From assembly GCF_910593785.1 (NCBI RefSeq), contig NZ_CAJVAP010000003.1, positions 71,522-135,521 of the forward strand: 64,000 bases of DNA. The letters are read 5' to 3'. The translations under genes and the position numbers were made by a program. The stretch comes from Leucobacter soli (GTDB lineage: Bacteria > Actinomycetota > Actinomycetes > Actinomycetales > Microbacteriaceae). Positions 14,574-64,000 of this stretch are shown piece after piece; the stretch's first letter is position 1, and every line of letters begins with the position of its first letter. The notes below the pieces were generated by a model that saw nothing but the letters and a program-made list of their open reading frames with translations, had not been told where the DNA came from and did no database searches.

Positions 14574-14634
14574 ATTTCTTGATAGGGCTCATGCGAGGTC
14601 GCGCGAGCCACGGATCTTCGACAAGGGAGTACGA

Positions 14635-15852: not shown

Positions 15853-15883
15853 CCCCACCGTCAGAGACGACGAAAGGAAACCC

Positions 15884-38809: not shown

Positions 38810-38877
38810 CCTCCCGCACCCCATCGACCCAACCACCGAACCGAACACTCACCCACGATTGACTGGAGAAACCCGAC

Positions 38878-40452: not shown

Positions 40453-40487
40453 ACTCCGGTCGGAGAATTAGAGGAAACGGAGATCCG

Positions 40488-41558: not shown

Positions 41559-41649
41559 CGCGCGGCGGTCGGATGGACCGGCATCGATCATCGGCGCCGC
41601 AGTCGCCGCGCATACAGATTCAACGAAGGATGAAGGACAGAGGGCAACG

Positions 41650-44609: not shown

Positions 44610-44667
44610 GCCGGCGGAACGCCGTGCGTCCGAGGCCCTCAGAACCACGAAAGAGAAGGAAGAAGAA

Positions 44668-47399: not shown

Positions 47400-47423
47400 C
47401 CCCGTCGATAGGAGAATGAGATC

Positions 47424-47948
47424 ATGGCTGAAAACGACATCGCCCAGGCAGATGATGCGCTGCTCGACCTGTTCCGCACGACCTTCCGCCGGCATGCCGG
47501 CGGCGTGGTCGTCCTGACCTCGATCGATCCGACCGGGGAACCCATCGGCTTCACTGCGACGTCGCTGGCGTCGCTGTCCGCGGTTCCGGCGCGCGCGACG
47601 TTCAACGTGATCAAGAAGACGAACGGCTACCGGGCCGCATTCGTCGGGAACCGTGTGGCGGTGAACTTCCTGGGTGCCGAGTCCGCCGAGCTCGGCAGCC
47701 TGTTCGCGGGTCCGTTCGAGCAGCGCTTCGTCGGGGATCACTGGCAGCTCGACGGCGGTGTGCCGGTGCTGCCCGCCGCGGGCGTCACGCTGATGACCGA
47801 GATCGTCAACGTGTACGACCAGGGCGAGAACGCGATCGTGGTGCTCGAGATCGTCGGTGGTCGCGTCGGCGACGAGCAGGAGCCGCTGCTCTACCACAAC
47901 CGCCGCTTCGGCACGGTGAGCCCGATCGAGGAGCGCGCCTTCGCCTGA
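47424..47948 (+). CDS. hpaC: flavin reductase component (HpaC-like)
   Basis: This 174-residue flavin-reductase-like protein has the fold's features: FRRHAGGVVVLTSIDPTGEPIGFTATSLASLSAVPARATFNVIKKT for flavin binding and a C-terminal LLYHNRRFGTVSPIEE. It should reduce FAD with NAD(P)H and hand FADH2 to the HpaB-type oxygenase encoded upstream. It is the only such reductase seen in the window and may also serve the other HpaB-type, ACAD-fold and LLM oxygenases. Confidence 0.87.
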   Translation: MAENDIAQADDALLDLFRTTFRRHAGGVVVLTSIDPTGEPIGFTATSLASLSAVPARATFNVIKKTNGYRAAFVGNRVAVNFLGAESAELGSLFAGPFEQRFVGDHWQLDGGVPVLPAAGVTLMTEIVNVYDQGENAIVVLEIVGGRVGDEQEPLLYHNRRFGTVSPIEERAFA

Positions 47949-50110: not shown

Positions 50111-50173
50111 GTGCAGAGTCTATGCGCGGGCACCGACGAACGGCGGACGACCGGCCGGGCCGCAGGGCTGCGG

Positions 50174-50205
50174 GGGAGCCGGATCGCCGATCCTGTCCGG
50201 CTCCC
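50174..50205. terminator. 10-pair hairpin in a divergent region
   Basis: GGGAGCCGGA (50174-50183) and TCCGGCTCCC (50196-50205) pair perfectly around 12 bases. It lies in a region where neighbours diverge (50110 minus, 50312 plus), where a terminator is not expected. It follows, on the minus strand, a stop codon at 50212-50214, suggesting the 3' end of a lost gene. Confidence 0.55.
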
Positions 50206-50311
50206 GAAGGGTCAGTCGGTGACGTCCCAGACCGCGGGCAGGTGCACGGCGGTGCCGGTATCCGAATCGACGTGAGCGCCTGAACCGCGACCCAGGTCTG
50301 AAGGAGACAGC

Positions 50312-51155
50312 ATGAGTAACGTGAACATGGACGACGTCGAGTTCATCGGATTCATCGATGCGGCCCGCACCGAACTCATCAAGATCGTGGTCAACGGCCC
50401 GCTGCCGGACGCGAACAAGAACCCGATCCGCCTCGCCGAGGAGATCGCCGCGGTGGACACGATCACCGGCAGCTCGCGGCCCAGAGGCGATACACGTACC
50501 AGAACGCGCTCTCGCCCTTCCCGGGGATGGTGAAGACGATGGGACGCTTCCGCGATCTCTGCCGCGAGGAGGGCTACGAGCCCGATCCGCGCCAGACCGC
50601 GGCGCTCTTCAACGTGCACGTCGCCGAGTCGGATGCCGAGGCCCGCCGAGAGGTCGAGAACCTCATCCTCTGGGACTACCAGAACTTCTTCCGCTCGGTC
50701 GCGCACGACAACTTCCCCCGGAATACGTGTCGGAGAAGTCGCTGCGCGCCATGCGCAGCGGCGGGTACCGCTCCATCGCACCCGAGGACATGAACTACGA
50801 CATGCTGATCGAGAACCGGTGGCTGATCGCGGGCTCGCCCGAGACGGTGCGCGAGCAGCTCCGCGACTCGATCGAGCAACTCGGAACCGGTCGAGTGATC
50901 CTCTCCTTCACCACGGGTGTGAAACCGCGGTGGATGGTGGACAAGACCCTGCAGCTGTTCTCCGAGCAGGTGCTGCCGCATTTCCGCGGCCGCGGCAGGG
51001 CGCTGGTCGACGAGGCGCCGCGCGCCGGCTACACGAACCGCCTGGAGTACGCGGTGAAGCGGCGCGAGGACGCCCCTGCGCCCTCCGCGATCAAGGACGG
51101 CGAGCTGGTCGACGTGACCCGAGCCCACCTCGATGGGGTCGACGCGCGGATCTGA
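50312..51155 (+). pseudogene. decayed LLM-class flavin-dependent monooxygenase
   Basis: Three frames together spell pieces of a luciferase-like monooxygenase related to the intact one at 54935. Frame 1 (50312 on) has a ribosome site GAAGGAG, a start and ELIKIVVNGPLPDANKNPIRLAEEIAAVDTI. After about 50480 the frame changes and continues as RYTYQNALSPFPGMVKTMGRFRDLCREEG up to DNFP. Near 50718 a missing C in a C-run shifts the frame again to PEYVSEKSLRAMRSGGYRS, then LIAGSPETVREQLRDSIEQLG, to the stop. Compared with the 440-residue relative, about 80 residues after the first 15 and about 100 in the middle are deleted, so it cannot be functional even allowing for one sequencing error. Confidence 0.82.
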
Positions 51156-51183
51156 GCGTGCTCCGGTCGGCGGCGCCCGCGAG

Positions 51184-51218
51184 CGCGTCCTCTCAAAAGA
51201 GAACGCGTGTTGTCTTCT
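51184..51218 (+). terminator. terminator after the LLM pseudogene
   Basis: CGCGTCCTCT (51184-51193) pairs with AGAGAACGCG (51198-51207, one C/A mismatch) around CAAA, followed by the T-rich TGTTGTCTTCT. It is one of few hairpins here with a T-rich tail, and isolates the downstream MFS gene. Confidence 0.6.
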
Positions 51219-51286
51219 GATGGCATCTCTGGTCTACTCGAGGGTAAGCCGTTCGATAGCGGTCCGACGAGCGAGACGGGTGTGAC

Positions 51287-52528
51287 GTGGGAAGCCATCG
51301 ACGCGGACGGTCGGCGCGCAGCAGTGAACCCCGGGTGACCCCGCTGCTGGTCGCCGCTCTCGGCTTCCTGTCGATGGGCTCGGCCTTCGCGACCGACACC
51401 TATCTGCCGGCGCTCCCGGACATCGCACTCGACCTGCGGACCTCGCCCGCGCTCGTGCAGGCGACGCTCACCGTCTTCGTCATCGCCCAGGCGGCCGGGA
51501 ACCTCGTCATCGGGCCGGTCTCCGACCGCTTCGGCCGATGGCGCCCGCTGCTCATCAGCACGATCGTGTTCGTGCTCGCGAGCGTCGGAGCGGCTCTGGC
51601 GCAGGACATCTGGATGCTCATCGCGATGCGGGCCGTGCAGGGCCTCGCCTCCGCCGCCGGGCCCGTGATCGCGCGGGCCGTCGTCGCGGACCTCACCCAC
51701 GGCGTCCAGGCGGCGAGGCTCTTCGGCATCCTCATGATGGTGTTCGGGATCGCGCCGGTGATCGCCCCCGTGATCGGCGGACCCCTCGCCGAACTCGGCG
51801 GCTGGCGGCTCGCGATGGGGGCGATCGTCGCCCTGGGCGTCGTCGGGGTGCTCGTCGCCCTCCGACTGCCCGAGAGCCTGCCGCGGGATCGTCGACGGGC
51901 CGTGCGCCTGCGGAGCGTCTTCGGCGACTACACCGGTCTCGTGCGCAACCGCACCTTCTTCGCCGGCTCCCTCGTGGTGATGGCGGCGTTCGGCATCATC
52001 ATGACCTGGCTCAGCAACTCCTCGTTCGTGCTTCAGGAGCACTACGGACTCTCGCCGACGGGGTACGCCGTGACCTTCGCGGCGAACTCGGCCGGTTTCG
52101 GCCTGGCGGCGATGCTCAACTCGGCGCTCCTGCGCCGCTTCCCACCCGCCGCCATCCTGCGCGGAACCATCTTCGTGAGCGTCGCCGTGACGGCCGCCGC
52201 GCTCGTCCTCGCCCTCGTCGACGCCCTCCCGCTCTGGACGCTGCTCGTGCTCGTGACGATCGCCTTCGGCTCGACGGCGCCGATCATGTCGAATGCGACG
52301 GCGGTGGCGCTCGCGGCGGTGCGTCCGACCGAGGTCGGCACAGCCTCGGCGTTCCTCGGCGCGCTCGAGTTCCTGCTCCCTGCGATCGTGGCACCCATGC
52401 TCGGGCTCTTCGGCAGCTCGCCGGAGCCGACGGCCATCGGATTCTTCGCCTACGCCCTGCTCGGTCTCGCTCTGTGGGCACGGCTCCGCGCGCTGCCGAT
52501 CCGCGCTCAGGTTTCACGGGGCGCATAG
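51287..52528 (+). CDS. MFS efflux transporter, Bcr/CflA family
   Basis: This 413-residue protein has about 12 membrane helices and the Bcr/CflA signature from the N terminus: LGFLSMGSAFATDTYLPALPDIALDLRTSPALVQATLTVFVIAQAAGNLVIGPVSDRFGRWRPLL (motif A, DRFGRWR), and AVQGLASAAGPVIARAVVADL. Members export drugs and some amino acids. The GTG at 51287 starts the protein; another GTG at 51282 is out of frame. It sits between the LLM pseudogene and the DAO operon and may export a toxic intermediate, which is speculation. Confidence 0.87.
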   Translation: MGSHRRGRSARSSEPRVTPLLVAALGFLSMGSAFATDTYLPALPDIALDLRTSPALVQATLTVFVIAQAAGNLVIGPVSDRFGRWRPLLISTIVFVLASVGAALAQDIWMLIAMRAVQGLASAAGPVIARAVVADLTHGVQAARLFGILMMVFGIAPVIAPVIGGPLAELGGWRLAMGAIVALGVVGVLVALRLPESLPRDRRRAVRLRSVFGDYTGLVRNRTFFAGSLVVMAAFGIIMTWLSNSSFVLQEHYGLSPTGYAVTFAANSAGFGLAAMLNSALLRRFPPAAILRGTIFVSVAVTAAALVLALVDALPLWTLLVLVTIAFGSTAPIMSNATAVALAAVRPTEVGTASAFLGALEFLLPAIVAPMLGLFGSSPEPTAIGFFAYALLGLALWARLRALPIRAQVSRGA

Positions 52529-52641
52529 GCCGCTGCGCGGGGTGTTCTTTGCGTGCATCCGATCAGCCGGTGCGTGCGGAGTTGAGCCGCGAATTCGAGT
52601 CAGCACAAGGGATCTCGGGGGTTTCGAGCCCGCCCGGGGTC

Positions 52642-52671
52642 TTGGCCGGGGACTGCACGGCTGCGTACACT
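52642..52671 (+). promoter_or_regulatory. promoter of the DAO-LLM-HpaB operon
   Basis: TTGGCC (52642-52647) and TACACT (52666-52671) are 18 bases apart, about 50 bases before the GTG at 52724. The -35 is weak, as expected for a regulated promoter. Confidence 0.5.
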
Positions 52672-52688
52672 TTGGGACGTTCGAAGTG

Positions 52689-52698
52689 GTCGTACGAC
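52689..52698. promoter_or_regulatory. palindrome GTCGTACGAC, candidate operator
   Basis: A perfect 10-base palindrome lies about 10-20 bases after the predicted transcription start of the DAO operon; bound protein there would block transcription. No dedicated repressor gene is adjacent. Confidence 0.4.
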
Positions 52699-52723
52699 GA
52701 CCGTTGATTCACAGGGATGTGAC

Positions 52724-54067
52724 GTGACTGTTTCTGAAACCGCAGCCGGCCCGCTGCCCGTGCGCATCGCGCCGCGCGTACCGGCCGAGCTTCCGCGAGA
52801 GCGGGACGCCGTCGTGATCGGCGGCGGGATCACCGGCCTCCTCACGGCGATCGAGTTGCGCACGCAGGGCCGCAGCGTGCTCCTGCTCGAGGCGCGCAAC
52901 ATCGGGAACGCGCAGTCCGGTCGCAACATGGGCTTCGTGCGCGAACAGGGGCGGGAATCCGTCGAGGGCGAGATCATGCGGCACGCCGCGGACCGCTGGC
53001 GCACGCTTGCCGAACGGTACGGGCAGCGCCTCGGTTGGACGGCCGGCGGGCACCTCTCGGTCGCACGGGACGAGGAGAGCCTCGACCGGGTCGCCTCGTG
53101 GGGCGGGATCGCCGAGCGGATCGGCACGCGCTTCGAGGTGCTCCGCGGCCGCGCGGCCGCCGAGCGCTTCCCCTGGCTCGCCCCCGGCATCGTCGGCATC
53201 GGCTGGACGCCGGACGACGGGCACGTGGATCCGGCCCCGGCGATGCGCACGATCGCGGAGCTCGCGCGCGAGGTCGGCGTGGAGATCGTCGAGGGTGCCG
53301 AGGTGGATCGGCTGGAGCTCGCCGGCGGGCGCATCGAGGGCGTCGCGGTGGGGGAGCGCACCGTCCGGTCGCCGCTCGTCGTGCTGGCCGCGGGCGTCTG
53401 GTCCTCCCGGCTGCTCCGCCGCGCGGGCATCGGACTGCCCCTGCATGTCGGGCGGAGCACGCTCTCGGTCACGAGGCCGGTCGCGCCGCTCACCCGATCG
53501 AGCGTCTGGGACGTCACCGGCGCCGGATTCCGGCAGTCGTCGGACGGCCGGATCGTGGTCGGCATGGGGGCGTTCGTCGACGTCGACGTGCGCTGGGAGG
53601 ATGTGCGCGCCTCGCTGAGCCTGCTGCCCGTGCTGTGGCAGAACCGTCGCACCATGCGGATCCACCCCGGCAGGCCGCTCGCGGGCGATCTCGCAGACCT
53701 GGTGACGGGCAAGGGGCTGCGACCCTTCGAATGGAGCGAGGCCGAGCCCAACGCCCGCACCGCGGCGGAGGGGGTGCGCCTCCTCGGCGAGCTGGTGCCC
53801 GCGCTCGCCGGCGTCGAGCTCGAGACCGCGTGGGCGGGGCTCATGGACAGCACCCCCGACTTCCTGCCGATCGCCGGTGCGTCCGGGGTCGACGGGCTGC
53901 TCCTCATCGCCGGCACGAGCGGCCACGGCCTGGGCATCGCGCCCGCGCTGGCGGACGGTGTGGCGGCACTCGTCGAGAGCGGCGAGGAATCGAGCCTGAT
54001 CTCCCCGTTCTCGTACCGGAGGTTCGCGAGGCGGGGTCACCCCGCCGAGCGGGCGACGACCGGATGA
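52724..54067 (+). CDS. FAD-dependent oxidoreductase, DAO family
   Basis: This 447-residue flavoprotein has an FAD dinucleotide fold VVIGGGITGLLTAIELRTQGRSVLLLEA (residues 30-57), the DAO-type NIGNAQSGRNMGFVREQG segment where many relatives have SG-G-N, and a C-terminal FAD region ETAWAGLMDSTPDFLPIAGAS then AGTSGHGLGIAPALADGVA. Members oxidise amino groups of amino acids, sarcosine or amines, releasing an imine and peroxide, or pass electrons to a carrier. The GTG at 52724 follows AGGGATGTGAC. It is the first gene of the long operon to 63461 and likely oxidises an amine in the pathway. Confidence 0.83.
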   Translation: MTVSETAAGPLPVRIAPRVPAELPRERDAVVIGGGITGLLTAIELRTQGRSVLLLEARNIGNAQSGRNMGFVREQGRESVEGEIMRHAADRWRTLAERYGQRLGWTAGGHLSVARDEESLDRVASWGGIAERIGTRFEVLRGRAAAERFPWLAPGIVGIGWTPDDGHVDPAPAMRTIAELAREVGVEIVEGAEVDRLELAGGRIEGVAVGERTVRSPLVVLAAGVWSSRLLRRAGIGLPLHVGRSTLSVTRPVAPLTRSSVWDVTGAGFRQSSDGRIVVGMGAFVDVDVRWEDVRASLSLLPVLWQNRRTMRIHPGRPLAGDLADLVTGKGLRPFEWSEAEPNARTAAEGVRLLGELVPALAGVELETAWAGLMDSTPDFLPIAGASGVDGLLLIAGTSGHGLGIAPALADGVAALVESGEESSLISPFSYRRFARRGHPAERATTG

Positions 54068-54113
54068 CCAGAGACCGAATACCAGCAGTCAAAGTGGATA
54101 GGAGTCCGAACCC

Positions 54114-54929
54114 ATGAGTGAATCGCTGCCCTGGCCGTTCTACACCGAGCCGAGCAAGGTCGACGTGAGAGGCCTCGACGTCGCCTATCGCCGCAAGGGC
54201 GAGGGCGAGCCGGTGCTCTACCTGCACGGCGCCGGTCTCACCCAGCGCTGGCTGCCGTTCCACGAGAAGATGTCGGAGCGCGTCGACCTCCTCGCGCCCG
54301 AGCATCCCGGCTTCGGCGACACCGAGATGCCCGAATGGCTCGACGGCTTCGACGATGTCGTCCTGCACTACGCCGACCTGCTCGACACGCTCGGCATCGA
54401 CCGGGTGCACGTGGTCGGCCATTCCTTCGGCGGCTGGATCGCTGCGGAGTTCGCCGTGTTCTTCCCCGAGCGCATCAAGTCGCTCCAGCTGATCGCCCCC
54501 GCAGGGCTGAAGGGCGCCGACCTGAACGACCCCTTCCGCCAGGAGGGCTTCGAGGCCTTCGAACGCGTCTTCAACGGGCGGGGCGAGGAGTTCCCCGACT
54601 ACATCGAGGAGGGCGACCCCGTCGAGGCGCTCGTGCAGGGCTACAAGGAGACCACGGCCCGGGCCCGACTCGCCTGGCAGCCGCGGCACGACCGGAAGCT
54701 GCCCCGTCGCCTCGGGCGCGTCACGGCGCCGACCCAGGTGCTGCTGGCGCAGGAGGACCGGGTCATGGACGTGAACGTCTCGGCGCAGTACGCCGACTAC
54801 ATCGAGGGCGCCACCGTGTCGGTCGTCGAATCGGACGGCATCCCCACCTCGCACGTGCCCTTCGTGCAGGCGCCCGAGGTGCTCGCCACCACCATCACCA
54901 ACTTCGTCGCTGAGCATTCGGAGGCCTGA
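54114..54929 (+). CDS. alpha/beta hydrolase
   Basis: This 271-residue hydrolase has the oxyanion segment LHGAGLTQRW (from residue 37), nucleophile Ser104 in VVGHSFGGWIA, an acid in QEDRVMDV near 222 and a His in SHVPFVQAPE near 245. The order fits meta-cleavage-product or carbamate/ester hydrolases; RutD of the pyrimidine pathway is also this fold. It precedes the LLM monooxygenase by five bases, so the two are likely consecutive steps: oxygenation then hydrolysis of a C-C, C-N or ester bond. Confidence 0.84.
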   Translation: MSESLPWPFYTEPSKVDVRGLDVAYRRKGEGEPVLYLHGAGLTQRWLPFHEKMSERVDLLAPEHPGFGDTEMPEWLDGFDDVVLHYADLLDTLGIDRVHVVGHSFGGWIAAEFAVFFPERIKSLQLIAPAGLKGADLNDPFRQEGFEAFERVFNGRGEEFPDYIEEGDPVEALVQGYKETTARARLAWQPRHDRKLPRRLGRVTAPTQVLLAQEDRVMDVNVSAQYADYIEGATVSVVESDGIPTSHVPFVQAPEVLATTITNFVAEHSEA

Positions 54930-54934
54930 TCAAG

Positions 54935-56257
54935 ATGAACAAGCTGGAATTCTACGTCGCCAACGGGGGCAAGTTCCCCTACATCCCGCGCCGGGACAAG
55001 ATCGGCAAGTCGATCTACATCTCGACCCCGAACGACTACTACGATCCGGTGCGCGGCCAGCGCATCCTCGAGGACTACCTCGGCCTCTTCGAGCTCGAGG
55101 AGAAGCTTGGCTACGACGGCGCCGTGATCCTCGAGCAGCACGGCGGGCCGAACTCGCTCGTGGGCCAGTCCATCGTGATGGCCGCCGCGGCGATCAGCCA
55201 CACGCGGGAGATGCGGATCGGCACGGTCGGCGCGATCCTCAACAGCTACCGCACCCCCATGCGCTACGCGGAGGAGGTCGCGACCCTCGACATCCTCTCG
55301 AACGGGCGCTATTTCTTCGGTCTGCCGATGGGCATCGGCGCGAACTACCACGGGCTCGGCGTGATGAACCCGACCTACGCCCGCGAGCAGTTCCGCGAGG
55401 GGCACGAGTTCCTCAAGCGCGCCTTCACCGAACGGGAGCCGTTCAGCTTCGACGGCAAGTTCTACCAGACGGAGTACGCGAACCTGTGGCCGCGGCCGCT
55501 GCAGGACCCGTATCCCGAGGCGTGGGTGCCGGCCGCCGGCTCGAAGGACTCGCTTTCCTTCGCCGCGCAGAACGGCTACACCTACCTCGCGGTGCTGGTG
55601 CCGTGGCCGATCCTGCTCAAGAACTGCCAGATCTTCCGCGATGCGGTGGAGGAGGCCGGGCAGGAGTGGGACCCGCGCCGCATCGTGGCGAACGCGCACG
55701 TCTACGTCGCCGAGACCGACAAGCAGGCCCGGCAGGAGGCGGAGGCGCACGTGATGTCGCTGCTGCAGAACTCGCTCGGTTCGCCGTTCCACGACTCGTT
55801 CCCGCCTGGCCACGTGACGATCCCCTCGCTGCGTGGCATGGCCGCCGGCGGCGGCTACCGCAGCAAGGACATCAGCACGACGACCTACGAGGAGGGGCTC
55901 GAGAGCGGTCAGTTCATCGTCGGCTCGCCCTCGACGGTGGCCGAGCGGATCGAGGAGATCACCACCAAGATGGGAGCCGGCCGCCTGAACCTGACCGGCG
56001 ACATGTGGACCATGCCCGACTGGATGGCCCGCAAGAACCTGACGATCTTCGCGGAGGAGGTCATGCCGCGCTTCCGCGAGCCGGGCGGCAAGCCCTCCTG
56101 GGACAAGAGCTCGCGCGCCGGCTACCGCACGGTCAGCGAGTACGGCGCCATCGCGGGGGAGCCCAAGTTCGTGCCGCAGTCGATCGTCGAGGGCGTCGGC
56201 CCGGTCGACATCCGCACCGCCCACATCCCCGAGCTGCGCGTCCCCGTCGAGGACTGA
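54935..56257 (+). CDS. LLM-class flavin-dependent monooxygenase
   Basis: This 440-residue protein has the bacterial luciferase-like fold: LEFYVANGGKFPYIPRRD, then ILEDYLGLFELEEKLGYDGAVILEQHGGPNSLVGQSIVMAAAAISHTREMRIGTVGAILNSYRTPMRYAEEVATLDILSNGR and FIVGSPSTVAERIEEI. It uses reduced flavin and oxygen for Baeyer-Villiger, N-oxidation or ring-opening chemistry and needs a reductase; the HpaC-like protein is a candidate. About 90 residues extend beyond the usual family end (RAGYRTVSEYGAI and on). The pseudogene at 50312 shares this extension, identifying a common subgroup. Confidence 0.87.
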   Translation: MNKLEFYVANGGKFPYIPRRDKIGKSIYISTPNDYYDPVRGQRILEDYLGLFELEEKLGYDGAVILEQHGGPNSLVGQSIVMAAAAISHTREMRIGTVGAILNSYRTPMRYAEEVATLDILSNGRYFFGLPMGIGANYHGLGVMNPTYAREQFREGHEFLKRAFTEREPFSFDGKFYQTEYANLWPRPLQDPYPEAWVPAAGSKDSLSFAAQNGYTYLAVLVPWPILLKNCQIFRDAVEEAGQEWDPRRIVANAHVYVAETDKQARQEAEAHVMSLLQNSLGSPFHDSFPPGHVTIPSLRGMAAGGGYRSKDISTTTYEEGLESGQFIVGSPSTVAERIEEITTKMGAGRLNLTGDMWTMPDWMARKNLTIFAEEVMPRFREPGGKPSWDKSSRAGYRTVSEYGAIAGEPKFVPQSIVEGVGPVDIRTAHIPELRVPVED

Positions 56258-56324
56258 CTCAGCCGAGGACCGACCCCGTCGAGCCGCAGCTCGCCCCACA
56301 CTCATACGCAATAGAAGGAGCACC

Positions 56325-56612
56325 ATGTCCATCATCGTCACCGTCCGCATCCCCGACGCCGACATCGAGCGCGTGCGTCAAGTCGACGCCGATTACCCCG
56401 AGCTCCGCGCCCAGCTGGGCGAGTCGCTCAAGCGCCACGGCAACATCTCGCATCGTCGCGTGTACCGCGGCAACGAGATCATGGACATCGACGAGTGGGA
56501 GTCGGAGGAGGGCCTCCGCGCCTTCCTCGCCGAGTCCGGCCCCGTCATCGCGCAGCTCGCGGAGCTGCGCGGCACGGGGAAGCCCAGCGACACCATCTGG
56601 TCGATCTACTGA
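56325..56612 (+). CDS. small dimeric alpha/beta-barrel-like protein of unknown function
   Basis: This 95-residue protein has alternating strands and helices (IVTVRIPDADIERVRQVDADYPELRAQLG; HGNISHRRVYRGNEIMDIDEWESEEGLRAFL) as in dimeric alpha-beta-barrel proteins of the ABM/EthD class. No catalytic residues can be named. The spacing of 67 bases from the LLM gene and 19 from the decarboxylase gene places it inside the operon. The ATG at 56325 follows AGAAGGAGC. It might be a monooxygenase partner, isomerase or binding protein. Confidence 0.7.
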   Translation: MSIIVTVRIPDADIERVRQVDADYPELRAQLGESLKRHGNISHRRVYRGNEIMDIDEWESEEGLRAFLAESGPVIAQLAELRGTGKPSDTIWSIY

Positions 56613-56631
56613 ACCGCCCGGGAGGCTGAAG

Positions 56632-58032
56632 GTGTCTGACGTGCAGGAGCAAACCGTGGCGCTCGACCCGGAGCTCGTCGATGCGATCGTGGAGCGCGCG
56701 CAGCAGCTGCTGCCGCTCGGCTCGCTCTGGGCGGCCGAGGGCGGTGCGGCTCGTGCCGACTCCCCGGCCGATGGCGGGAGCGACGCCGACGCGCGCGAGG
56801 CCCTGGCCGAGCTCGGCCGCCGGCTCGGCGAGATGTACCCCTACGGCGACGTGAGGTACATCGGTCAGATCCTCAAGCCCCCCCACCCGGTCGCGTGGGC
56901 GGCGAACGCCGTCACCGCCCTGATCAACCCCAACAACCACGCGCTCGACGGGGGGCCCGCCACGGCCCACCTCGAGAAGGAGGCGGTGGCCGATCTGGCG
57001 CGCATGTTCGGCATGCCGCAGCATCTCGGCCACCTCACCTCCTCGGGCACGATCGCCAATCTCGAGGCGCTGTTCGTCGCTCGGGAGCTCCGTCCCGAGG
57101 GGGTGGTGCTCTCGAGCGAGGCCGCGCACTACACGCACAAGCGGATGTGCGCGCTGCTGCGCATGGAGCACGAGACGGTGCCTCAGGACGAGGGCGGGCG
57201 CATGGACGTCGAGGCGCTCGAGCGGCGCCTCGAGCAGGGCGGGGTGTCGCTGGTCGTCGCGACGCTCGGGACGACGAGTCTCGGCGCGCTCGACCCGGTC
57301 CACCGCATTCTCGAGCTCGGCCGGCGCTACGGCGTGCGCGTGCACGTCGACGCCGCGTACGGCGGCTTCCACGTGCTGCTCGCGGGCGACGATCCGACCG
57401 TCGATCCGGCGCCGTTCCGCGCGCTCCCCGAGGCCGACTCGATCGTGGTCGATCCGCACAAGCACGGCCTGCAGGCCTTCGGCTGCGGCAGCGTGCTCTT
57501 CGCGGATCCCTCGGTCGGCAGCCTCTACCTGCACGACTCGCCCTACACCTACTTCACCTCGGACGAACTGCACCTCGGCGAGATCAGCCTGGAGTGCTCG
57601 CGACCCGGGGCACCCGCCGCGGCCTTCTGGGCCACCACGCGGGTGCTGGAGCTGACCTCCGGGGGACTCGGCGCCCAGCTGCGCCGGAGCCGGGAGGCCG
57701 CGACGCGCATCGCCGCCGGCCTCGCCGCGGGACGGAGCAGCCGCCTGGTGGTGGAGCCCGAGCTCGACATCGTCTGCTACTACCCGGCGGCCGAACGTGC
57801 GAGCGAGATCAGCCGCGCCTCGGACCGCGCCTTCGACCTGCTGGCCGAGCGCGGCTGGCACGTCGCGAAGCTCACGGTCGACGTCGATTGGCTGCGCCGG
57901 TCCGGCGCCGGCATCGAGGCGGACGCGGAGACGGTCACGGTGCTGCGCAGCTGCGTGATGAAGCCGGAGCACCTCGGCATCGTCGACGAGTTCGTCGAGA
58001 CCGTCGAAGAGGTGTTCAGCGGCCTCGTGTAA
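56632..58032 (+). CDS. PLP-dependent decarboxylase, group II
   Basis: This 466-residue enzyme belongs to the pyridoxal decarboxylase family that includes glutamate, tyrosine/DOPA and 2,4-diaminobutyrate decarboxylases. Landmarks are HYTHKRMCALLRME, LGTTSLGALDPV, VHVDAAYGGFHVL with the pyridine-N Asp, and the PLP lysine Lys277 in VVDPHKHGLQAFGCG. GGxHVL and PHKHGLQ resemble bacterial tyrosine/glutamate decarboxylase-like proteins, but the substrate is not fixed by sequence. The GTG at 56632 follows GGAGGCTGAAG. In the operon it would remove CO2 from an amino acid intermediate. Confidence 0.85.
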   Translation: MSDVQEQTVALDPELVDAIVERAQQLLPLGSLWAAEGGAARADSPADGGSDADAREALAELGRRLGEMYPYGDVRYIGQILKPPHPVAWAANAVTALINPNNHALDGGPATAHLEKEAVADLARMFGMPQHLGHLTSSGTIANLEALFVARELRPEGVVLSSEAAHYTHKRMCALLRMEHETVPQDEGGRMDVEALERRLEQGGVSLVVATLGTTSLGALDPVHRILELGRRYGVRVHVDAAYGGFHVLLAGDDPTVDPAPFRALPEADSIVVDPHKHGLQAFGCGSVLFADPSVGSLYLHDSPYTYFTSDELHLGEISLECSRPGAPAAAFWATTRVLELTSGGLGAQLRRSREAATRIAAGLAAGRSSRLVVEPELDIVCYYPAAERASEISRASDRAFDLLAERGWHVAKLTVDVDWLRRSGAGIEADAETVTVLRSCVMKPEHLGIVDEFVETVEEVFSGLV

Positions 58033-58070
58033 CCGAGACCGCTGGGAGACGAGGGAGCGAGGGAGCGACC

Positions 58071-58850
58071 ATGAGCACCGGCACGATGAACGACGACCAG
58101 GCGCGGGGCGGCGCGGCCGGCGACGGCTGGCACCGCTGGCAGGAGCTCGCCCGGCGCGAGGTCGTCGACCTGGCCCGCGAGGGCCTGGTCGTCGTCCCGC
58201 TCGGCGCGACGGAGCAGCACGGCCCGTTCCTGCCTACCGGCACCGACATCATGCTGTCGACGCGGGCGGTCGAGGGCGCGCTCGATCTCGCGGCGCCGGA
58301 ATGCGACCGACCGCTCATCCTGGCGCAGTTCCTCGGCATCGGCTGCTCGGCGCACCACCTGCCGTTCGGCGGCACGATCTCGCTGCCGCCCCAGGTGATG
58401 ATCGACGTGCTCGTGGCCTCCATGCTCAGCATGGCGGAGAGCGGCGTGAGCCGCATCGTGCTCGTGAACGGGCACGGCGGCAACACCGGGGTGTGCCACG
58501 CCGCGGCCTCCGAGGCGGCCTCGCGCAGCGATCTGACCATCGCGGCGCTCGACTACTGGGAGATGGCGTCGCCGCCGGATCCCGCCGCGCCCGGCCACGC
58601 CGGAGCGTTCGAGACCTCGCTGATGCTCGCCGTGCGGCCGGATCTCGTGGCCGCGGACCGAGAGCGGGCCGGCCGCGACGACGTCGCGCAGCCGGGGCGC
58701 GGCGTCTACGCACGGGACGTCTGGAGCGGCATTGACGGCTTCACCGATCATCCGGCCCGGGCCGACGCGACCCGCGGCGCCGAGACGCTCGGCGGTATCG
58801 AACGCAACCTGGCCGCCCGGCTGCTCGGGCTGGCGGAGAGCATGCCGTGA
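58071..58850 (+). CDS. creatininase-family amidohydrolase
   Basis: This 259-residue protein has the complete metal site of the creatininase family: Glu48 and His50 in GATEQHGPFLPTGTD, Asp59, His135 in NGHGGN and Glu181 in GAFETSLML. Relatives hydrolyse creatinine, formamides or small amide bonds in pyrimidine, flavin and peptide-derived compounds. The ATG at 58071 follows GAGGGAGCGA. Its stop overlaps the next gene start. In this operon it likely opens a lactam or cleaves an amide produced by the oxygenases. Confidence 0.86.
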   Translation: MSTGTMNDDQARGGAAGDGWHRWQELARREVVDLAREGLVVVPLGATEQHGPFLPTGTDIMLSTRAVEGALDLAAPECDRPLILAQFLGIGCSAHHLPFGGTISLPPQVMIDVLVASMLSMAESGVSRIVLVNGHGGNTGVCHAAASEAASRSDLTIAALDYWEMASPPDPAAPGHAGAFETSLMLAVRPDLVAADRERAGRDDVAQPGRGVYARDVWSGIDGFTDHPARADATRGAETLGGIERNLAARLLGLAESMP

Positions 58851-59821
58851 GCGAGCCGGTCCACCTCTCCCGGACCGACGTGCTGCGCCTCTCCGCGGGC
58901 GCATCCGGGCGCGCGCCCATCGACGTCGAAGCGGCGCTGCGGCGCGTGCTCGTCGAGGCCGAGCTGGGTGAGGCCGGGCAGCTGACCCGCACGGAACTCG
59001 CGCCCGAGGGTCTGCCGAGCGTGCTCGGCATCATGCCCGGCTACCGCTCCGCCGCACCGGCGGCATTCGCCGCCAAGATCGTCTGCGTGGTTCCCGGCAA
59101 TCCGGCCAAGGGCCTGCCCGCGCACCAGGGGCTGGTGCTGCTCTTCGACGCGGAGTCGGGCGCGCTGCTCGCCCTGGCGGATGCCGGGGCGGTCACCGAG
59201 ATCCGCACCGCCGCGCTCACCGCGCTCGCGACGCGCACGCTCGCCCGGCGCACGGAGGGCCGCTCGCTCGTGGTCGGCGGCGGTCATCAGGCCGTCGCCC
59301 ATCTCCGGGCGCTCGCACGCCTGCCGCACCCGCTCGCCGTCTGGGCGCGGCGGCCCGAGCAGGCCCTCGAGGCTGCCGCTGCGCTCGCCCTCGAGGGCGT
59401 CCGCGTCGACGCGGTGACCGACCTCGAGGGAGCCGTCCGCGAGGCGGACGTCGTGACGACGGTCACGGGGGCCCCGGAGCCGATCCTGCGCGACGAATGG
59501 CTCGCTCCCGGAACGCTGCTCAACGCGATCGGCTCGAGCACGCCGCGCGTCTGCGAGGTGCCCGAGGCGACGATCCGCAGCGCGTTCCTCGTCGCCGACG
59601 ACCCCGACGCCGCGCTCGCCCTCTCCGGAGAACTCTCCCGGCTCGCCCCGCCCGTGCCGCGCCCCCGATCGCTCGGCTCGCTGCTCCGATCGGGATCGCT
59701 CCCCGTCGAGTGCGAGAGCCGCCGGATCGTGTTCAAATCGGTCGGCGTCCCGCTCCAGGATCTGGCCCTCGCGTCCGCGCTCCATGAAGCGGCGCGCCAG
59801 GAGACGGGGATCTCCCCGTGA
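58847..59821 (+). CDS. ornithine cyclodeaminase/mu-crystallin family protein
   Basis: This 324-residue protein has the family layout: GIMPGYRSAAPAAFAAKIVCVVPGNPAKGLPAHQGLVLLFDAESGALLALADAGAVTEIRTAALTALAT, then the NAD-binding VVGGGHQAVAHLRALARL (GxGxQA type), and NAIGSSTPRVCEVPE. Members include ornithine cyclodeaminase, lysine cyclodeaminase, alanine dehydrogenase and ketimine reductases. It could form or reduce a cyclic imine. The GTG start overlaps the creatininase stop (GTGA). The family alone does not tell deaminase from reductase. Confidence 0.84.
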   Translation: MSEPVHLSRTDVLRLSAGASGRAPIDVEAALRRVLVEAELGEAGQLTRTELAPEGLPSVLGIMPGYRSAAPAAFAAKIVCVVPGNPAKGLPAHQGLVLLFDAESGALLALADAGAVTEIRTAALTALATRTLARRTEGRSLVVGGGHQAVAHLRALARLPHPLAVWARRPEQALEAAAALALEGVRVDAVTDLEGAVREADVVTTVTGAPEPILRDEWLAPGTLLNAIGSSTPRVCEVPEATIRSAFLVADDPDAALALSGELSRLAPPVPRPRSLGSLLRSGSLPVECESRRIVFKSVGVPLQDLALASALHEAARQETGISP

Positions 59822-59828
59822 ATGAGCA

Positions 59829-59844
59829 CCGCTCGGGCGAGCGG
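59829..59844 (+). terminator. hairpin between cyclodeaminase-like gene and HpaB paralogue 3
   Basis: CCGCTC (59829-59834) and GAGCGG (59839-59844) form a 6-pair stem with a GGGC loop eight bases after the stop codon. It may reduce read-through into the third HpaB-type gene. Confidence 0.4.
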
Positions 59845-59870
59845 ATCGTTCGGCGATGACCGGCGGGGCT

Positions 59871-59932
59871 GCGCTGCAGGTGCAGGATGCGGCGCTCGCT
59901 GCACAGCGCGGCCGCACCGAGAGTTCTAGCGT
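59871..59932 (+). promoter_or_regulatory. second promoter and repeats upstream of HpaB paralogue 3
   Basis: TAGCGT at 59927-59932 fits a -10 box for the gene at 59972; no good -35 is present. Upstream are an inverted repeat GCGCTG (59871-59876) / CAGCGC (59904-59909) and tandem TGCAGG units (59875-59886), possible AraC-type half-sites near the two AraC genes downstream. Confidence 0.3.
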
Positions 59933-59971
59933 GAAAAGCGAATCACCGAACACTGAGGAGAGGATCCGACG

Positions 59972-61525
59972 ATGACCGATTCGCAGCCCGTGCTGCCGTA
60001 CACCGGCGACGAGTATCTGGAGAGCCTGCGCGACGGGCGCAGCGTCTACATCTACGGGCAGAACGTGACGGATGTGACCACGCATCCGGCCTTCCGCAAC
60101 TCCGCGCGCATGATCGCGCGGATGTACGACGCCCTGCACGCCGACGACGCCGCGGAGCGCGGGCTTGTCGTGCCGACCGACACCGGGAACGGCGGATTCA
60201 CCCATCCCTTCTTTCGGGCGCCCAAGTCGGCCGAGGACCTGATCGCCTCCCGCGACGCGATCGCCGAGTGGGCGCGCGTCTCCCACGGCTGGATGGGGCG
60301 TTCCCCCGACTACAAGGCGACCTTCCTCGGCACGCTCGGCGTCAACCACGAGTACTACGCGCCGTTCGCGGAGAACGCCCGCCGCTGGTACCGGGAGTCG
60401 CAGGAGCGCGTGCTCTTCTGGAACCACGCGATCGTGAATCCGCCCATCGATCGCGATCTGCCGCCGGACGAGGTCGGCAACGTGGCGGTGCACGCGGTGC
60501 GCGAGACCGACGCCGGCATCTACCTCTCGGGCGCGAAGGTCGTCGCGACGAGCGCCGCCATCTCGAACGTGAACTTCATCGCCTACGCCGGGCCCCCGCT
60601 GAAGGACCCGCGCTACGCGGTCGTCTGCGCCATCCCGATGGACACTCCCGGCCTCAAGCTGATCTGCCGGCAGTCGTACTCCGTCGCCGCCCAGGCCGCG
60701 GGCACGCCCTTCGACTACCCGCTCTCCTCCCGGCTGGACGAGAACGACGCGATCCTCGTGCTCGACGAGGTGTTCGTGCCGTGGGAGAACGTCTTCGCCT
60801 ACGGCGACACCGAGAAGGTCTCCGGCTTCCTTTCGCAGTCGGGCATCGACAACCGGATCATGCTGCAGGGCTGCACCCGCCTGGCGGTGAAGCTCGACTT
60901 CCTCGCCGGCGTCTACATGAAGTCGTTGAAGATGACGGGGGCCGGCGAGTTCCGCGGAGTGCAGGCACGGCTCGGCGAGATCCTGGCCATCCGCAACCTG
61001 ATGTGGAGCACCACGGAGTCGATGATCCGCAACCCCGACCCGTGGCTGGACGGTCACGTGCAGCCGAATCGGCTGGCCGGCACCGTGTACAGCTGGTTCG
61101 CCGTGTCGCAGCACTCGCGCATCCGCGAGATCGTGCAGGAGGATCTCGGCTCCGCCCTGATCTACCTCCCGTCGCACGCGGAGGACTTCGCGAACGAGGA
61201 GCTGCGGCCGTATCTGGACCAGTACGTGCGCGGCTCGCGCGGCGCCGACTCCGTCGAGCGCGTCAAGGTGCTCAAGGCGATGTGGGACGCGACCGGGAGC
61301 GAGTTCGCGAGCCGGCACGAGCTCTACGAGCGGAACTATCAGGGGACCCGCGAGAACGCGCGCATCAAGATCCTGAAGGAGATGGAGCGGCGAGGCGACG
61401 TCGAGCGCCTGATCGGTCTCGCAGACGAGTTCCTCGCGGGCTACGATCTCAATGGATGGACCTCCGACGACCTCTTCGACGGGAAGGACGTCTCGGTCGT
61501 CCACGGGCTCGCGGGCACCGACTGA
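59972..61525 (+). CDS. HpaB-type FADH2-dependent monooxygenase (paralogue 3)
   Basis: This 517-residue HpaB-type hydroxylase looks closest of the three to E. coli HpaB in its N-terminal half: YTGDEYLESLRDGRSVYIYGQNVTDVTTHPAFRNSARM, GWMGRSPDYKATFLGTLGVN, FWNHAIVNPPIDRDLPPDE with the active-site His, and PLSSRLDENDAILVLDEVFVPWENVFAYGD. Relative to the others it has GRSPDYK in place of GRTPDYK and NGGF in place of GSGG. The ATG at 59972 follows GAGGAGAGGA. It precedes two AraC genes with tight spacing and has no own reductase gene. Confidence 0.86.
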   Translation: MTDSQPVLPYTGDEYLESLRDGRSVYIYGQNVTDVTTHPAFRNSARMIARMYDALHADDAAERGLVVPTDTGNGGFTHPFFRAPKSAEDLIASRDAIAEWARVSHGWMGRSPDYKATFLGTLGVNHEYYAPFAENARRWYRESQERVLFWNHAIVNPPIDRDLPPDEVGNVAVHAVRETDAGIYLSGAKVVATSAAISNVNFIAYAGPPLKDPRYAVVCAIPMDTPGLKLICRQSYSVAAQAAGTPFDYPLSSRLDENDAILVLDEVFVPWENVFAYGDTEKVSGFLSQSGIDNRIMLQGCTRLAVKLDFLAGVYMKSLKMTGAGEFRGVQARLGEILAIRNLMWSTTESMIRNPDPWLDGHVQPNRLAGTVYSWFAVSQHSRIREIVQEDLGSALIYLPSHAEDFANEELRPYLDQYVRGSRGADSVERVKVLKAMWDATGSEFASRHELYERNYQGTRENARIKILKEMERRGDVERLIGLADEFLAGYDLNGWTSDDLFDGKDVSVVHGLAGTD

Positions 61526-61545
61526 CCGCTGATCGACGGAGGCAG

Positions 61546-62517
61546 ATGAGGAGAGACGTCGCCTACTTCCCCCCGCGGGAGTACCGCGATCCCAGAGCTT
61601 GGGCGATCGCCGCACCGCGCCTGATCCAGGCGGCGGCGATCGCCCCCTTCGGCGCGGGCGAGGGGTTCCGGTTGCGCGCCGAGGCGGCCTCGCTGGGCGG
61701 GATCCGCCTCGCCCATCTGGAGTCGGGCCCCTACGTGCACGAGCGCGCCGGAAAGTCCGCCGAGTCCTCCGAACCCAGCTTCACGCTGACGCTCCAGCGG
61801 CGGGGCGTCAGCCGCATCGAGCAGGGCGGTCGCACGATCGAGCTCGCCCCCGACGATTTCACGATCACGGACTCCTCGCGGCCGTACCGGCGGGAGTACC
61901 CGACCGAGAACACCGTGCTCGTCATCCTCTTCCCGCAGCGGATGCTCGCGATCCCGCCCCGCTCGCTCGCGCATCTGGTCGGCACCTCCCTCTCCGGGAG
62001 GGAGGGGCTCGGCGCCATCGCCTCGCGGCTCCTGGGCGGGGTCGCCGACCATCTGGCGGCGCTGCGCGAACCGCTCGGGCTCGCCATGGTCGACTCGGTG
62101 CTCGACGTCGTGTCGACGCTGCTCGCGGCTCGCGCGCTCGGGGACGATCAGGCGGATGCTCCGGTCTGGCAGCTGCTCGAGATCCGCGACTACATCATGG
62201 ACCACCTCGACGATCCCGAGCTCGCGCCGGCGAGCATCGCTCGGGCCAACTTCATTTCCGAACGCCGGCTGCACCACCTGTTCCAGGGATCGGGAAGCAC
62301 CGTCGGCGCCTGGATCCGCGGCCGCCGACTCGAGATGTGCCGCCGGGATCTCACCGACCCCGCCGCCGCCTCGCGCACCGTTCGCGAGGTCGGAGAGCAG
62401 TGGGGATTCACCAACCAGACGCATTTCGCGCGCGCGTTCCGAGCGGCCTACGGCTGCTCGCCGAGCGAGGCGCGGGCCGCCGGTACGATCGCGCACGAGG
62501 GGGAATTCGAGCTATGA
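61546..62517 (+). CDS. AraC-family transcriptional regulator (tandem copy 1)
   Basis: This 323-residue regulator has an N-terminal AraC-binding-like sensor domain (FTLTLQRRGVSRIEQGGRTIELAPDDFTITDSSRPYRREYP near residues 80-125) and a C-terminal AraC DNA-binding domain of two helix-turn-helix units (LAPASIARANFISERRLHHLFQGSGSTVGAWIRGRRLEMCRRDL; VGEQWGFTNQTHFARAFRAAYGCSPSEARA). The ATG at 61546 follows GACGGAGG, 20 bases after the HpaB stop. This class typically activates aromatic-degradation genes such as feaR/andR. Its stop overlaps the second AraC gene. Confidence 0.88.
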   Translation: MRRDVAYFPPREYRDPRAWAIAAPRLIQAAAIAPFGAGEGFRLRAEAASLGGIRLAHLESGPYVHERAGKSAESSEPSFTLTLQRRGVSRIEQGGRTIELAPDDFTITDSSRPYRREYPTENTVLVILFPQRMLAIPPRSLAHLVGTSLSGREGLGAIASRLLGGVADHLAALREPLGLAMVDSVLDVVSTLLAARALGDDQADAPVWQLLEIRDYIMDHLDDPELAPASIARANFISERRLHHLFQGSGSTVGAWIRGRRLEMCRRDLTDPAAASRTVREVGEQWGFTNQTHFARAFRAAYGCSPSEARAAGTIAHEGEFEL

Positions 62518-63461
62518 CCAGGGACATCACCTATTTCCCTCCGCGGGAGTACCGGGATGCCAGAGCCTGGGCACTGGCATCGGACCAGCTGTTCCAGACC
62601 ACGCCGATCGTCCCCTCGGACACCGCCGGGAGTTTTCGGCTCCGCGCCGAGATGATGAAGCTCGGTCGCGTGCGGCTCGCGCACCTGGAATCGGGGCCGT
62701 ATCTCAACGAGCGGTTCCCCGTCGAGGGCCAGCAGGTGGACCCGATGTTCATCCTCGACCTGCAGCGCGTCGGTCGCAGCCGAATCGAGCAGCACGGGCA
62801 GATCACCGAGATCGGGCCGGGCGACTTCTCGATCACGGACGCGTCGCGACCCTATCGCCGGGAGTACCTGGAGGCCAGGAACCAGGTGCTGGTGATCCAG
62901 TTCCCGCAGCAGATGCTCACGCTGCCGCCGCGCGCGCTCGCCCACATCCTCGGCACCTCGTTCTCGGGGAGCGCGGGGCTCGCGGCCATCATGTCGCGGT
63001 TCCTCGACGGCATCGCCGACAACCTCGCCGCCCTCCAGGAACCCCTCGGCCTCACCATGATCGATTCCGTCATCGACGTCGTCTCGACACTGGTGACCGG
63101 CCGCACCTCGGTGGGCGGAGAAGCCGGGGACTCCGCCTGGCAGCTGCTCGAGATCCGCGACTACATCATGGAGCACCTGGGGGACCCGGATCTCACCCCC
63201 GAACGGATCGCCCGGGCGAACTACATCTCGCTCCGCCAGTTGCACGCGCTGTTCGCGAAGTCGGGGTCCACGGTGGCCGCCTGGATCCGGGACCGCCGGC
63301 TCGAGATGTGCCGACGGGAGCTCTCCGATCCTCGCGCCGCGAACCGAACCGTGCGCGAGATCAGCGATCGGTGGGGATTCAGCAACCAGACGTACTTCGC
63401 GAAGGTCTTCCGGGCGACGTACGGCTACTCGCCGACAGCAGCGCGCCGCAGGGAGCCCTGA
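62514..63461 (+). CDS. AraC-family transcriptional regulator (tandem copy 2)
   Basis: This 315-residue protein is a clear paralogue of the preceding regulator (shared YFPPREYRDARAWA N terminus, HLESGPY, the SRPYRREY sensor strand and WQLLEIRDYIM before the DNA-binding domain). The two helix-turn-helix units are LTPERIARANYISLRQLHALF and ISDRWGFSNQTYFAKVFRATYGYSP. It overlaps the first copy (ATGA). The pair probably arose by local duplication and may respond to different effectors or form heterodimers controlling the island. Confidence 0.88.
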   Translation: MTRDITYFPPREYRDARAWALASDQLFQTTPIVPSDTAGSFRLRAEMMKLGRVRLAHLESGPYLNERFPVEGQQVDPMFILDLQRVGRSRIEQHGQITEIGPGDFSITDASRPYRREYLEARNQVLVIQFPQQMLTLPPRALAHILGTSFSGSAGLAAIMSRFLDGIADNLAALQEPLGLTMIDSVIDVVSTLVTGRTSVGGEAGDSAWQLLEIRDYIMEHLGDPDLTPERIARANYISLRQLHALFAKSGSTVAAWIRDRRLEMCRRELSDPRAANRTVREISDRWGFSNQTYFAKVFRATYGYSPTAARRREP

Positions 63462-63477
63462 GGATCCCTGCGGCGCG
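63442..63477. terminator. strong bidirectional terminator enclosing a stop codon
   Basis: CGCGCCGCAGGGA (63442-63454) and TCCCTGCGGCGCG (63465-63477) form a perfect 13-pair stem; the ten-base loop holds the TGA stop of the second AraC gene (63459-63461). It ends the 52.7-63.5 kb operon and can also stop the convergent ABC ATPase transcript. No T-run follows. Confidence 0.75.
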
Positions 63478-63497
63478 AGAAGCCTGCCGGCCCGGCC

Positions 63498-64000
63498 TTA
63501 CAGCACGGCTGAGAGGAACGCCTTCGTGCGCTCGTTCCGGGGGTCGCCGATCACCTGCTCCGGCGGGCCGACCTCGACGACGCGACCGGCATCCATGAAC
63601 ACCACCCGGTCGGCGACCTCGCGGGCGAAGCCCATCTCGTGCGTGACCACGATCATGGTCATGTCCCCGGCGCGGGCGATGTCCTTGATGACCGCGAGGA
63701 CCTCGCCGACGAGTTCGGGATCGAGCGCACTGGTGGGCTCGTCGAACAGCATCAGCTTCGGCTGCATGGCGAGTGCGCGCGCGATGGCGACGCGCTGCTG
63801 CTGGCCGCCCGAGAGCTGCGACGGGTAGTGGCCGTCCTTGCCCGAGAGTCCGACGCGTTCGAGCAGATCGAGCGCGCGCGCCTTGACCTCGGACTTCGAC
63901 TCCTTCAGCACGACGACCGGGCCGAGCATGATGTTCTCGAGCGCCGTCATGTGGGGGAAGAGGTTGAAGTTCTGGAACACCATGCCCACGTCGACGCGCT
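63498..64000 (-). CDS. polar amino acid ABC transporter ATP-binding protein (GlnQ-like), 5' end outside window
   Basis: This is the C-terminal part (about 167 residues) of an ABC ATPase, open to the window edge. Visible are the Q-loop region [20 protein letters not shown], signature LSGGQQQRV, Walker [13 protein letters not shown] and H-loop [26 protein letters not shown], diagnostic of the GlnQ/HisP group. The Walker A part lies beyond 64000. It should drive uptake of a polar amino acid; permease and binding-protein genes are expected upstream on the same strand outside the window. Confidence 0.9.

Follow-up and report, generated by a model that had tools for sequence, protein, structure and literature searches.

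A cluster of ten genes in Leucobacter soli raises the question of which compound its enzymes degrade. The cluster lies at positions 52724-63461 of the stretch analyzed here (the window, 64,000 nucleotides of contig NZ_CAJVAP010000003.1 in a genome of 2.87 Mb). It encodes a DAO-type oxidase dependent on flavin adenine dinucleotide (FAD), an alpha/beta hydrolase (ABH), a luciferase-like flavin monooxygenase (LLM), a 95-aa protein, a pyridoxal phosphate (PLP) decarboxylase, a creatininase-family hydrolase (CRN), an OCD/mu-crystallin protein (OCD), an HpaB-type oxygenase and two AraC regulators. Gene calls confirmed that the ten genes share one direction, and Pfam returned the families that an initial annotation had named: DAO, Abhydrolase, Bac_luciferase, Pyridoxal_deC, Creatininase, OCD_Mu_crystall, HpaB and AraC, the last twice. 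The cluster is real, rare and catabolic, and has apparently spread horizontally; it is a genuine conserved set in which known enzyme families are newly combined. Our leading reading, still a tentative one, is that it forms a peripheral pathway for a phenolic (tyrosine-type) amino acid or a derivative of one, draining to homoprotocatechuate.

A conserved core in two phyla

Whether the families co-occur elsewhere had been set in advance as the test of the annotation, and they do: the LLM-ABH-95aa core recurs in four alphaproteobacterial loci and in a second Leucobacter (Leucobacter sp. isolate HKST-UBA32, JAGQTL010000025.1; genome G002, stretches L014/L055). Orthologs of the LLM were found in these two Leucobacter, two Rhodobacteraceae metagenome-assembled genomes (RHB1 and RHB2), Rhizobium sp. 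32-5/1, Agrobacterium tumefaciens CFBP6625 (plasmid pAtCFBP6625a) and a further genome, G860. Because the G860 locus nearly duplicates that of Agrobacterium, we left it out and compared the six independent loci. All six hold the LLM (62-90% identity to its orthologs), the ABH (58-88%), the 95-aa protein (50-86%) and at least one component of an importer; in RHB1, on a contig of 19 kb, that component is the binding protein alone. Pfam returned nothing for the 95-aa protein, even with the threshold relaxed to E 10. OCD is present in four of the six loci and the creatininase-family gene in three. G860 keeps the LLM, ABH and 95-aa genes and lacks the importer, RibB, aldehyde dehydrogenase, thiamine pyrophosphate (TPP) enzyme and aminotransferase; its ATPase match (34%) is surrounded by genes for sugar transport, and we did not score it as the importer. 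What appears by eye to be a two-gene transposon-like element stands there in place of the missing genes.

This LLM is rare. At E <= 1e-130 it was recovered from one of 396 genomes sampled from the order (the host itself), two of 394 genomes of the Rhizobium's family (that Rhizobium and G860) and one of 394 genomes of the first Rhodobacteraceae genome's family (again the genome itself). In the LLM tree the six independent orthologs form one group (100/100), within which the two Leucobacter sequences branch with those of the Rhodobacteraceae (92/94) and not with the Rhizobiaceae pair. The ABH tree likewise places the Leucobacter pair with the Rhodobacteraceae (81/92), with several long branches. 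This shared grouping suggests that the LLM-ABH pair has been transferred between phyla. The GC content of the cluster equals that of the window, so no recent arrival is visible.

The two Leucobacter loci agree closely. The order MFS-DAO-ABH-LLM-95aa-PLP-CRN-OCD-AraC2 is identical in both. In the second Leucobacter, the AraC2 ortholog (88% identical) directly follows OCD, with no HpaB or AraC1 in between, and the cognate HpaB (92%) is found ~6.7 kb past OCD, beyond the importer and after an amine oxidase and a flavin reductase. This arrangement suggests a single unit of seven genes, DAO to OCD, to which HpaB is linked as a movable member.

Side-chain enzymes and the hpa pathway

The annotation had also suggested catabolism of an aromatic amino acid derivative, and the comparison supports this through the amino-acid-type importer and the aromatic-amino-acid side-chain enzymes found in the loci. 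All four alphaproteobacterial loci, and neither Leucobacter stretch, encode an aromatic aminotransferase, a TPP enzyme and an aldehyde dehydrogenase, whereas the PLP decarboxylase shows the reverse distribution (2/2 Leucobacter, 0/4 alphaproteobacterial). In RHB1 the aminotransferase exceeds the cut-off of an aromatic amino acid transaminase model (496 vs 377), and the TPP enzyme that of PRK08266 (612 vs 571), a model that NCBIfam labels 'hypothetical protein'. The model nearest to the aldehyde dehydrogenase is that of the phenylacetaldehyde dehydrogenase StyD, below cut-off at 649 vs 800 (619 in Agrobacterium). For the Leucobacter decarboxylase the best NCBIfam model is the tyrosine decarboxylase MfnA, at 138.6 bits against a cut-off of 299.4. 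Leucobacter and Agrobacterium have a PF01593 amine oxidase gene next to the importer, and similarity points to one in Rhizobium as well; RHB1 and RHB2 gave no match to it. In Agrobacterium the cluster is followed by genes for maleylacetoacetate isomerase, fumarylacetoacetase and homogentisate dioxygenase, and the Rhizobium locus holds a short remnant of the dioxygenase. Together with what is known of these families, the findings point to an aromatic amino acid side chain that is shortened to an arylacetaldehyde, by decarboxylase and amine oxidase in one lineage and by transaminase and keto-acid decarboxylase in the other.

The HpaB of the cluster scores 622.3 bits against the equivalog TIGR02310, below its cut-off of 885.2. 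Among solved structures the nearest match is 4oo2, listed as chlorophenol-4-monooxygenase and which we take to be SgcC, and next come 4-hydroxyphenylacetate 3-monooxygenases. Residues R110, Y114 and H152 are invariant in the six HpaB sequences aligned; these Arg, Tyr and His positions are presumably active-site residues. A genome from a different genus of the family (G071, L070) has an hpa cluster whose HpaB shares 66% identity with this protein; hpaB is adjoined there by an AraC gene and an HpaC-like reductase, and a few kb away are genes for a DapA/HpaI-type aldolase, an HpaD that exceeds its cut-off and HpaE- and HpaG-like proteins. The host genome carries its own lower pathway on contig C9, with hpaD and hpaE over cut-off beside hpaG-, hpaI- and hpaH-like genes (HpaH 349 of 351.5 bits); none of the genome's four HpaB genes is located there. 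Among 149 relatives, seven have HpaB at E <= 1e-120 and 70 have HpaD; six of the seven HpaB-bearing genomes also have HpaD (the exception is G022), which is suggestive rather than a test.

At the same threshold, four HpaB places were found among the 149 relatives only in the host, the second Leucobacter and G070. Two of the host's other HpaB genes lie in the window (32076-33614 and 45840-47948) and the fourth on contig C6. A small protein encoded 3' of the 45840-47948 gene appears flavin-reductase-like by eye and has no NCBIfam match at E 1e-20. Near these further HpaB genes, 36975-45057 contains dipeptide-type ATP-binding cassette (ABC) importer genes (by eye), a proline-racemase-family protein, a RidA-family protein and an HsaA-like monooxygenase of the acyl-CoA-dehydrogenase fold, below cut-off; most genes of this region are found again in the second Leucobacter.

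Proposed pathway and points that weigh against it

The amino-acid-type ABC importer next to the cluster would take up the substrate. The PLP decarboxylase may then convert the amino acid to an amine, and the neighboring flavin amine oxidase the amine to an arylacetaldehyde and thence an arylacetate; we infer these two steps from the families and from the alphaproteobacterial aminotransferase/TPP/phenylacetaldehyde-dehydrogenase-like set that the Leucobacter loci lack. HpaB, with a flavin reductase, would hydroxylate the phenol ring to give homoprotocatechuate or an analog, which could feed the hpaD, hpaE and hpaG/I/H-like genes on the other contig. By precedent, the LLM with reduced flavin may oxygenate the characteristic part of the substrate, leaving the ABH to hydrolyze the product. 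The creatininase-family hydrolase, OCD, DAO and the 95-aa protein might conceivably handle nitrogen-bearing fragments.

Several findings weigh against this reading. No cluster protein exceeds the cut-off of any NCBIfam family compared (for DAO and ABH, the best 25 of 39 families). The Agrobacterium and Rhizobium loci lack OCD and creatininase. HpaB itself belongs to the two Leucobacter loci only, and three of the four alphaproteobacterial loci have an unrelated FAD hydroxylase. The amine oxidases of Leucobacter and Agrobacterium are only 30% identical; moreover, Agrobacterium and Rhizobium carry an amine oxidase as well as the aminotransferase set, so the two side-chain routes are not a clean swap. 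The ABH tree leaves the union of all six loci, which brings in the Rhizobiaceae pair, without resolution. HpaD is general in Leucobacter whether or not the cluster is there (it occurs in 48 of 54 listed genomes of the genus); finding it in the host is therefore weak evidence, and the idea that it is a specific partner of the cluster is weakened. Finally, plain tyrosine or tyramine would need neither a creatininase-like nor a ketimine-reductase-like enzyme.

The spacing of the genes raises a further difficulty. Intergenic gaps in cluster order are 46, 5, 67, 19, 38, -4, 150, 20 and -4 bp. The small gaps and overlaps described at first thus hold from DAO to OCD (-4 to 67 bp) and break down at the 150 bp before HpaB, because of which HpaB-AraC1-AraC2 may be a separate transcription unit. 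It could be that the LLM operon (52724-59821) and the hpaB-araC genes are unrelated neighbors that share no pathway. Besides the gap, the displaced position of HpaB in the second Leucobacter favors this explanation, as do the three HpaB genes in the window, which make HpaB common here. We nevertheless consider it quite unlikely, since both Leucobacter keep the cognate HpaB inside the cluster although so few of the 149 relatives have an HpaB at all.

Chemistry of the LLM-hydrolase pair

LLM oxygenases open nitrogen-containing rings in the pathways for uracil, pyridine and trigonelline. The cluster might accordingly degrade an N-heterocycle, with the LLM opening the nitrogen ring and the ABH and creatininase-like enzyme hydrolyzing the resulting amides. 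The presence of a creatininase-family enzyme and a cyclic-imine-type OCD agrees with this explanation, and more distant LLM-ABH pairs in Neorhizobium lie near a xanthine-dehydrogenase-family gene and a succinate-semialdehyde dehydrogenase gene. We judge it unlikely all the same. RutA is absent from the 25 NCBIfam families that match the LLM at E up to 0.001, and the NtaA/DmoA model scores 42.5 bits against a cut-off of 279.7. Half of the loci have no creatininase gene, and a phenol ring suits HpaB, its hpa context and the arylacetaldehyde-type enzymes. The published LLM-ABH pair described below is, moreover, a proposed Baeyer-Villiger enzyme with its hydrolase. The pyridine- or pyrimidine-type ring opening first envisaged for this cluster therefore finds no specific support.

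The pairing of LLM with ABH extends well beyond the cluster. Searching 120 relatives at E <= 1e-60 returned nine LLM matches in four genomes; two are orthologs (host and second Leucobacter) and the other seven are paralogs with 42-44% identity, yet an ABH gene adjoins the LLM at all nine places. LLM matches at E <= 1e-20 were found in 31 plasmid records, and in the eight examined an ABH was always present, adjacent to the LLM except in Haladaptatus, where it is one gene away. A gene for a flavin reductase or an NAD(P)H-dependent oxidoreductase, or a riboflavin gene, lies close by in several of these plasmids. Among the orthologous loci, a flavin reductase lies within three genes 3' of the LLM in all four alphaproteobacterial ones; like a SnoaL-like protein, it is confined to them. 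A different flavin reductase adjoins the amine oxidase past the importer in the second Leucobacter, and the host contig stops short of the corresponding place. RibB occurs in the Agrobacterium and Rhizobium loci.

For an adjacent LLM and ABH in Sphingobium sp. AntQ-1, the available portion of PMC9836352 proposes a type II Baeyer-Villiger monooxygenase and a lactone hydrolase acting in anthraquinone degradation, on the basis of transcriptomics and metabolites. By analogy, the pair in our cluster is possibly a flavin oxygenase and hydrolase of Baeyer-Villiger-like action; by that precedent a Baeyer-Villiger-type oxygenase with an ester or lactone hydrolase would be its most likely role. A bolder proposal is that the LLM, ABH and 95-aa protein constitute a new catalytic module that cleaves an amino-acid-bearing aromatic by a flavin route, in Actinomycetota and Alphaproteobacteria alike, with lineage-specific side-chain and hydroxylase sets. 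We regard this as somewhat unlikely.

Two paralogous ABH-LLM cassettes occur on contig C15 of the host (L018:7982-10138 and L019:7600-9798), and the first of these also encodes a protein distantly related to the 95-aa protein. A candidate arylformamidase beside that cassette was rejected, its NCBIfam match being hormone-sensitive lipase. In the window, a broken LLM gene with pieces in three frames lies upstream of the MFS gene on the same strand (50342-51134); in the LLM tree its nearest relatives are LLM paralogs from other Leucobacter cassettes, and not the cluster's own LLM.

Possible nitrogen-handling enzymes and the nature of the substrate

The remaining enzymes bear on what the substrate might carry besides a phenol ring. 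The creatininase-family protein had been credited with a complete metal site. Its motifs EQHG, TGTD and NGHGGN are indeed present; however, a Gly is aligned with the Glu of the true creatininase motif GHYEN (GHGGN instead), as in 3no4. It scores 74.7 bits against the creatininase equivalog (cut-off 235), and its best NCBIfam model is the mycofactocin protein MftE (109 vs 172 bits). The best PDB match of the OCD protein is thiomorpholine-carboxylate dehydrogenase 4bv8 (136 bits), and it falls below the cut-offs of all 15 NCBIfam families matched (best 153.4 vs 322 bits). Among PDB entries, DAO is closest to sarcosine oxidase 1y56 (118 bits) and then to L-amino acid deaminase 5fjm (111 bits over residues 21-434); it is 65% identical to its counterpart in the second Leucobacter, 44% in Agrobacterium and only 31-33% in the other loci. 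A creatininase-like and a ketimine-reductase-like enzyme together imply that the pathway goes beyond plain tyrosine through some intermediate that contains nitrogen; the actual substrate is therefore probably a derivative.

Such a derivative might be a conjugate. The LLM module could free an ordinary aromatic amino acid from an opine-like N-substituted amino acid or an amide, with DAO, OCD and LLM acting on the C-N bond and the remainder being routine tyrosine degradation. The DAO and OCD families include secondary-amine and imine enzymes, two of the six independent loci are those of Rhizobium and Agrobacterium plasmids, and the importer has an SBP_bac_3 binding protein, all of which would fit. 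Against it, OCD is missing from the two Rhizobiaceae loci, nothing ties the LLM of the cluster to N-dealkylation, and inspection of the gene lists by eye revealed no acetyltransferase or peptidase shared among the loci, though no search aimed at either was made. We find this explanation quite improbable, and retain the phenolic amino acid reading.

Two specific substrates were considered and set aside. A histidine/histamine route was raised by the creatininase and decarboxylase families; the available portion of PMC6467879 describes a histamine pathway with the FAD monooxygenase HinF and amidases, and contains no mention of 'luciferase' or 'creatinin'. For 3-nitrotyrosine, the open-license literature yielded no matching paper.

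Gene organization and neighborhood

Table 1. Features of the cluster and its immediate flanks, in window coordinates.
Feature	Position	Strand	Evidence
MFS transporter, upstream	51335..52528	+	same place in second Leucobacter
DAO-type FAD amino acid / secondary amine oxidase	52724..54067	+	Pfam DAO 210.5 bits
Alpha/beta hydrolase (ABH)	54114..54929	+	Pfam Abhydrolase_6; motifs GHSFGG, EDR, TSH
Luciferase-like flavin monooxygenase (LLM)	54935..56257	+	Pfam Bac_luciferase 149.2 bits
95-aa protein	56325..56612	+	no Pfam match; in all loci compared
Group II PLP decarboxylase, GTG start	56632..58032	+	Pfam Pyridoxal_deC; motifs HVDAA, DPHKHG
Creatininase-family amidohydrolase	58071..58850	+	Pfam Creatininase 167 bits
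OCD/mu-crystallin family, ketimine-reductase-like	58847..59821	+	Pfam OCD_Mu_crystall 160.7 bits
HpaB, 4-hydroxyphenylacetate 3-hydroxylase-type oxygenase	59972..61525	+	HpaB_N 294 + HpaB 199.7 bits
AraC regulator 1	61546..62517	+	FeaR model best, below cut-off
AraC regulator 2	62514..63461	+	FeaR model best, below cut-off
GC hairpin between convergent genes	63442..63477	.	inverted repeat
ATPase, polar-amino-acid-type ABC importer	63498..63998	-	cut by window end

The cluster had been said to end in a strong terminator. A hairpin is there, with 16-nt arms that pair almost perfectly around a 4-nt loop. It overlaps the AraC2 stop and separates two convergent units; it lacks a T tract, and a scan of 50000-64000 for intrinsic terminators returned none. 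On its 3' side the minus strand encodes the ATPase, permease and binding protein of the importer, the last two beyond the window. The ATPase is 70% identical to an annotated amino acid ABC transporter ATPase of Agrobacterium. Past the importer, the amine oxidase gene on the plus strand is cut by the contig end. At the other end, 195 bp separate the MFS gene from DAO (193 bp in the second Leucobacter). The two AraC proteins are 62% identical to each other and score 120 and 113 bits against the FeaR model (cut-off 199). A tRNA-Ala called by ARAGORN on the minus strand inside the 95-aa gene (56496-56598) is probably a false positive. Elsewhere in the window, 12611-17317 carries, by eye, a flavodoxin, ferredoxin reductase, P450 and glutamine-synthetase-like set, and a similar set is found on contig C12 (L081:1079-8741).

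Comparison with known systems

If our reading is correct, the LLM, ABH, 95-aa protein and importer are the conserved core of an aromatic amino acid pathway to which two phyla have added non-homologous enzymes for the adjoining steps. It would also narrow the candidate substrates of LLM-hydrolase pairs to a short list; such pairs are frequent in catabolic loci with no assigned substrate. The open-license literature yielded no paper on this gene combination, which is no proof of its absence in print.

The cluster resembles the hpa pathway in its HpaB-type oxygenase with an adjacent AraC gene and in the hpaD, hpaE and hpaG/I/H-like genes of the same genome. It differs in that hpaB stands apart from the lower genes, among genes for LLM, ABH, creatininase-family and OCD proteins, and in that its HpaB is below the TIGR02310 cut-off. 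The Rut and trigonelline/pyridine pathways also combine an LLM oxygenase with a hydrolase; unlike the Rut enzyme, the LLM here does not match the RutA model. In the known amine side-chain route, FeaR accompanies a tyramine oxidase and phenylacetaldehyde dehydrogenase. The AraC proteins of our cluster match FeaR best, albeit below cut-off, and an amine oxidase is nearby; however, that oxidase is a flavin and not a copper enzyme, a decarboxylase gene is part of the operon, and the LLM module is additional. Finally, the cluster shares adjacent LLM and ABH genes with Sphingobium sp. AntQ-1, a likeness at the level of families; the compound there, in the portion of PMC9836352 available, is an anthraquinone, whereas the genes here stand beside an amino-acid-type importer and enzymes of amine and amino acid metabolism.

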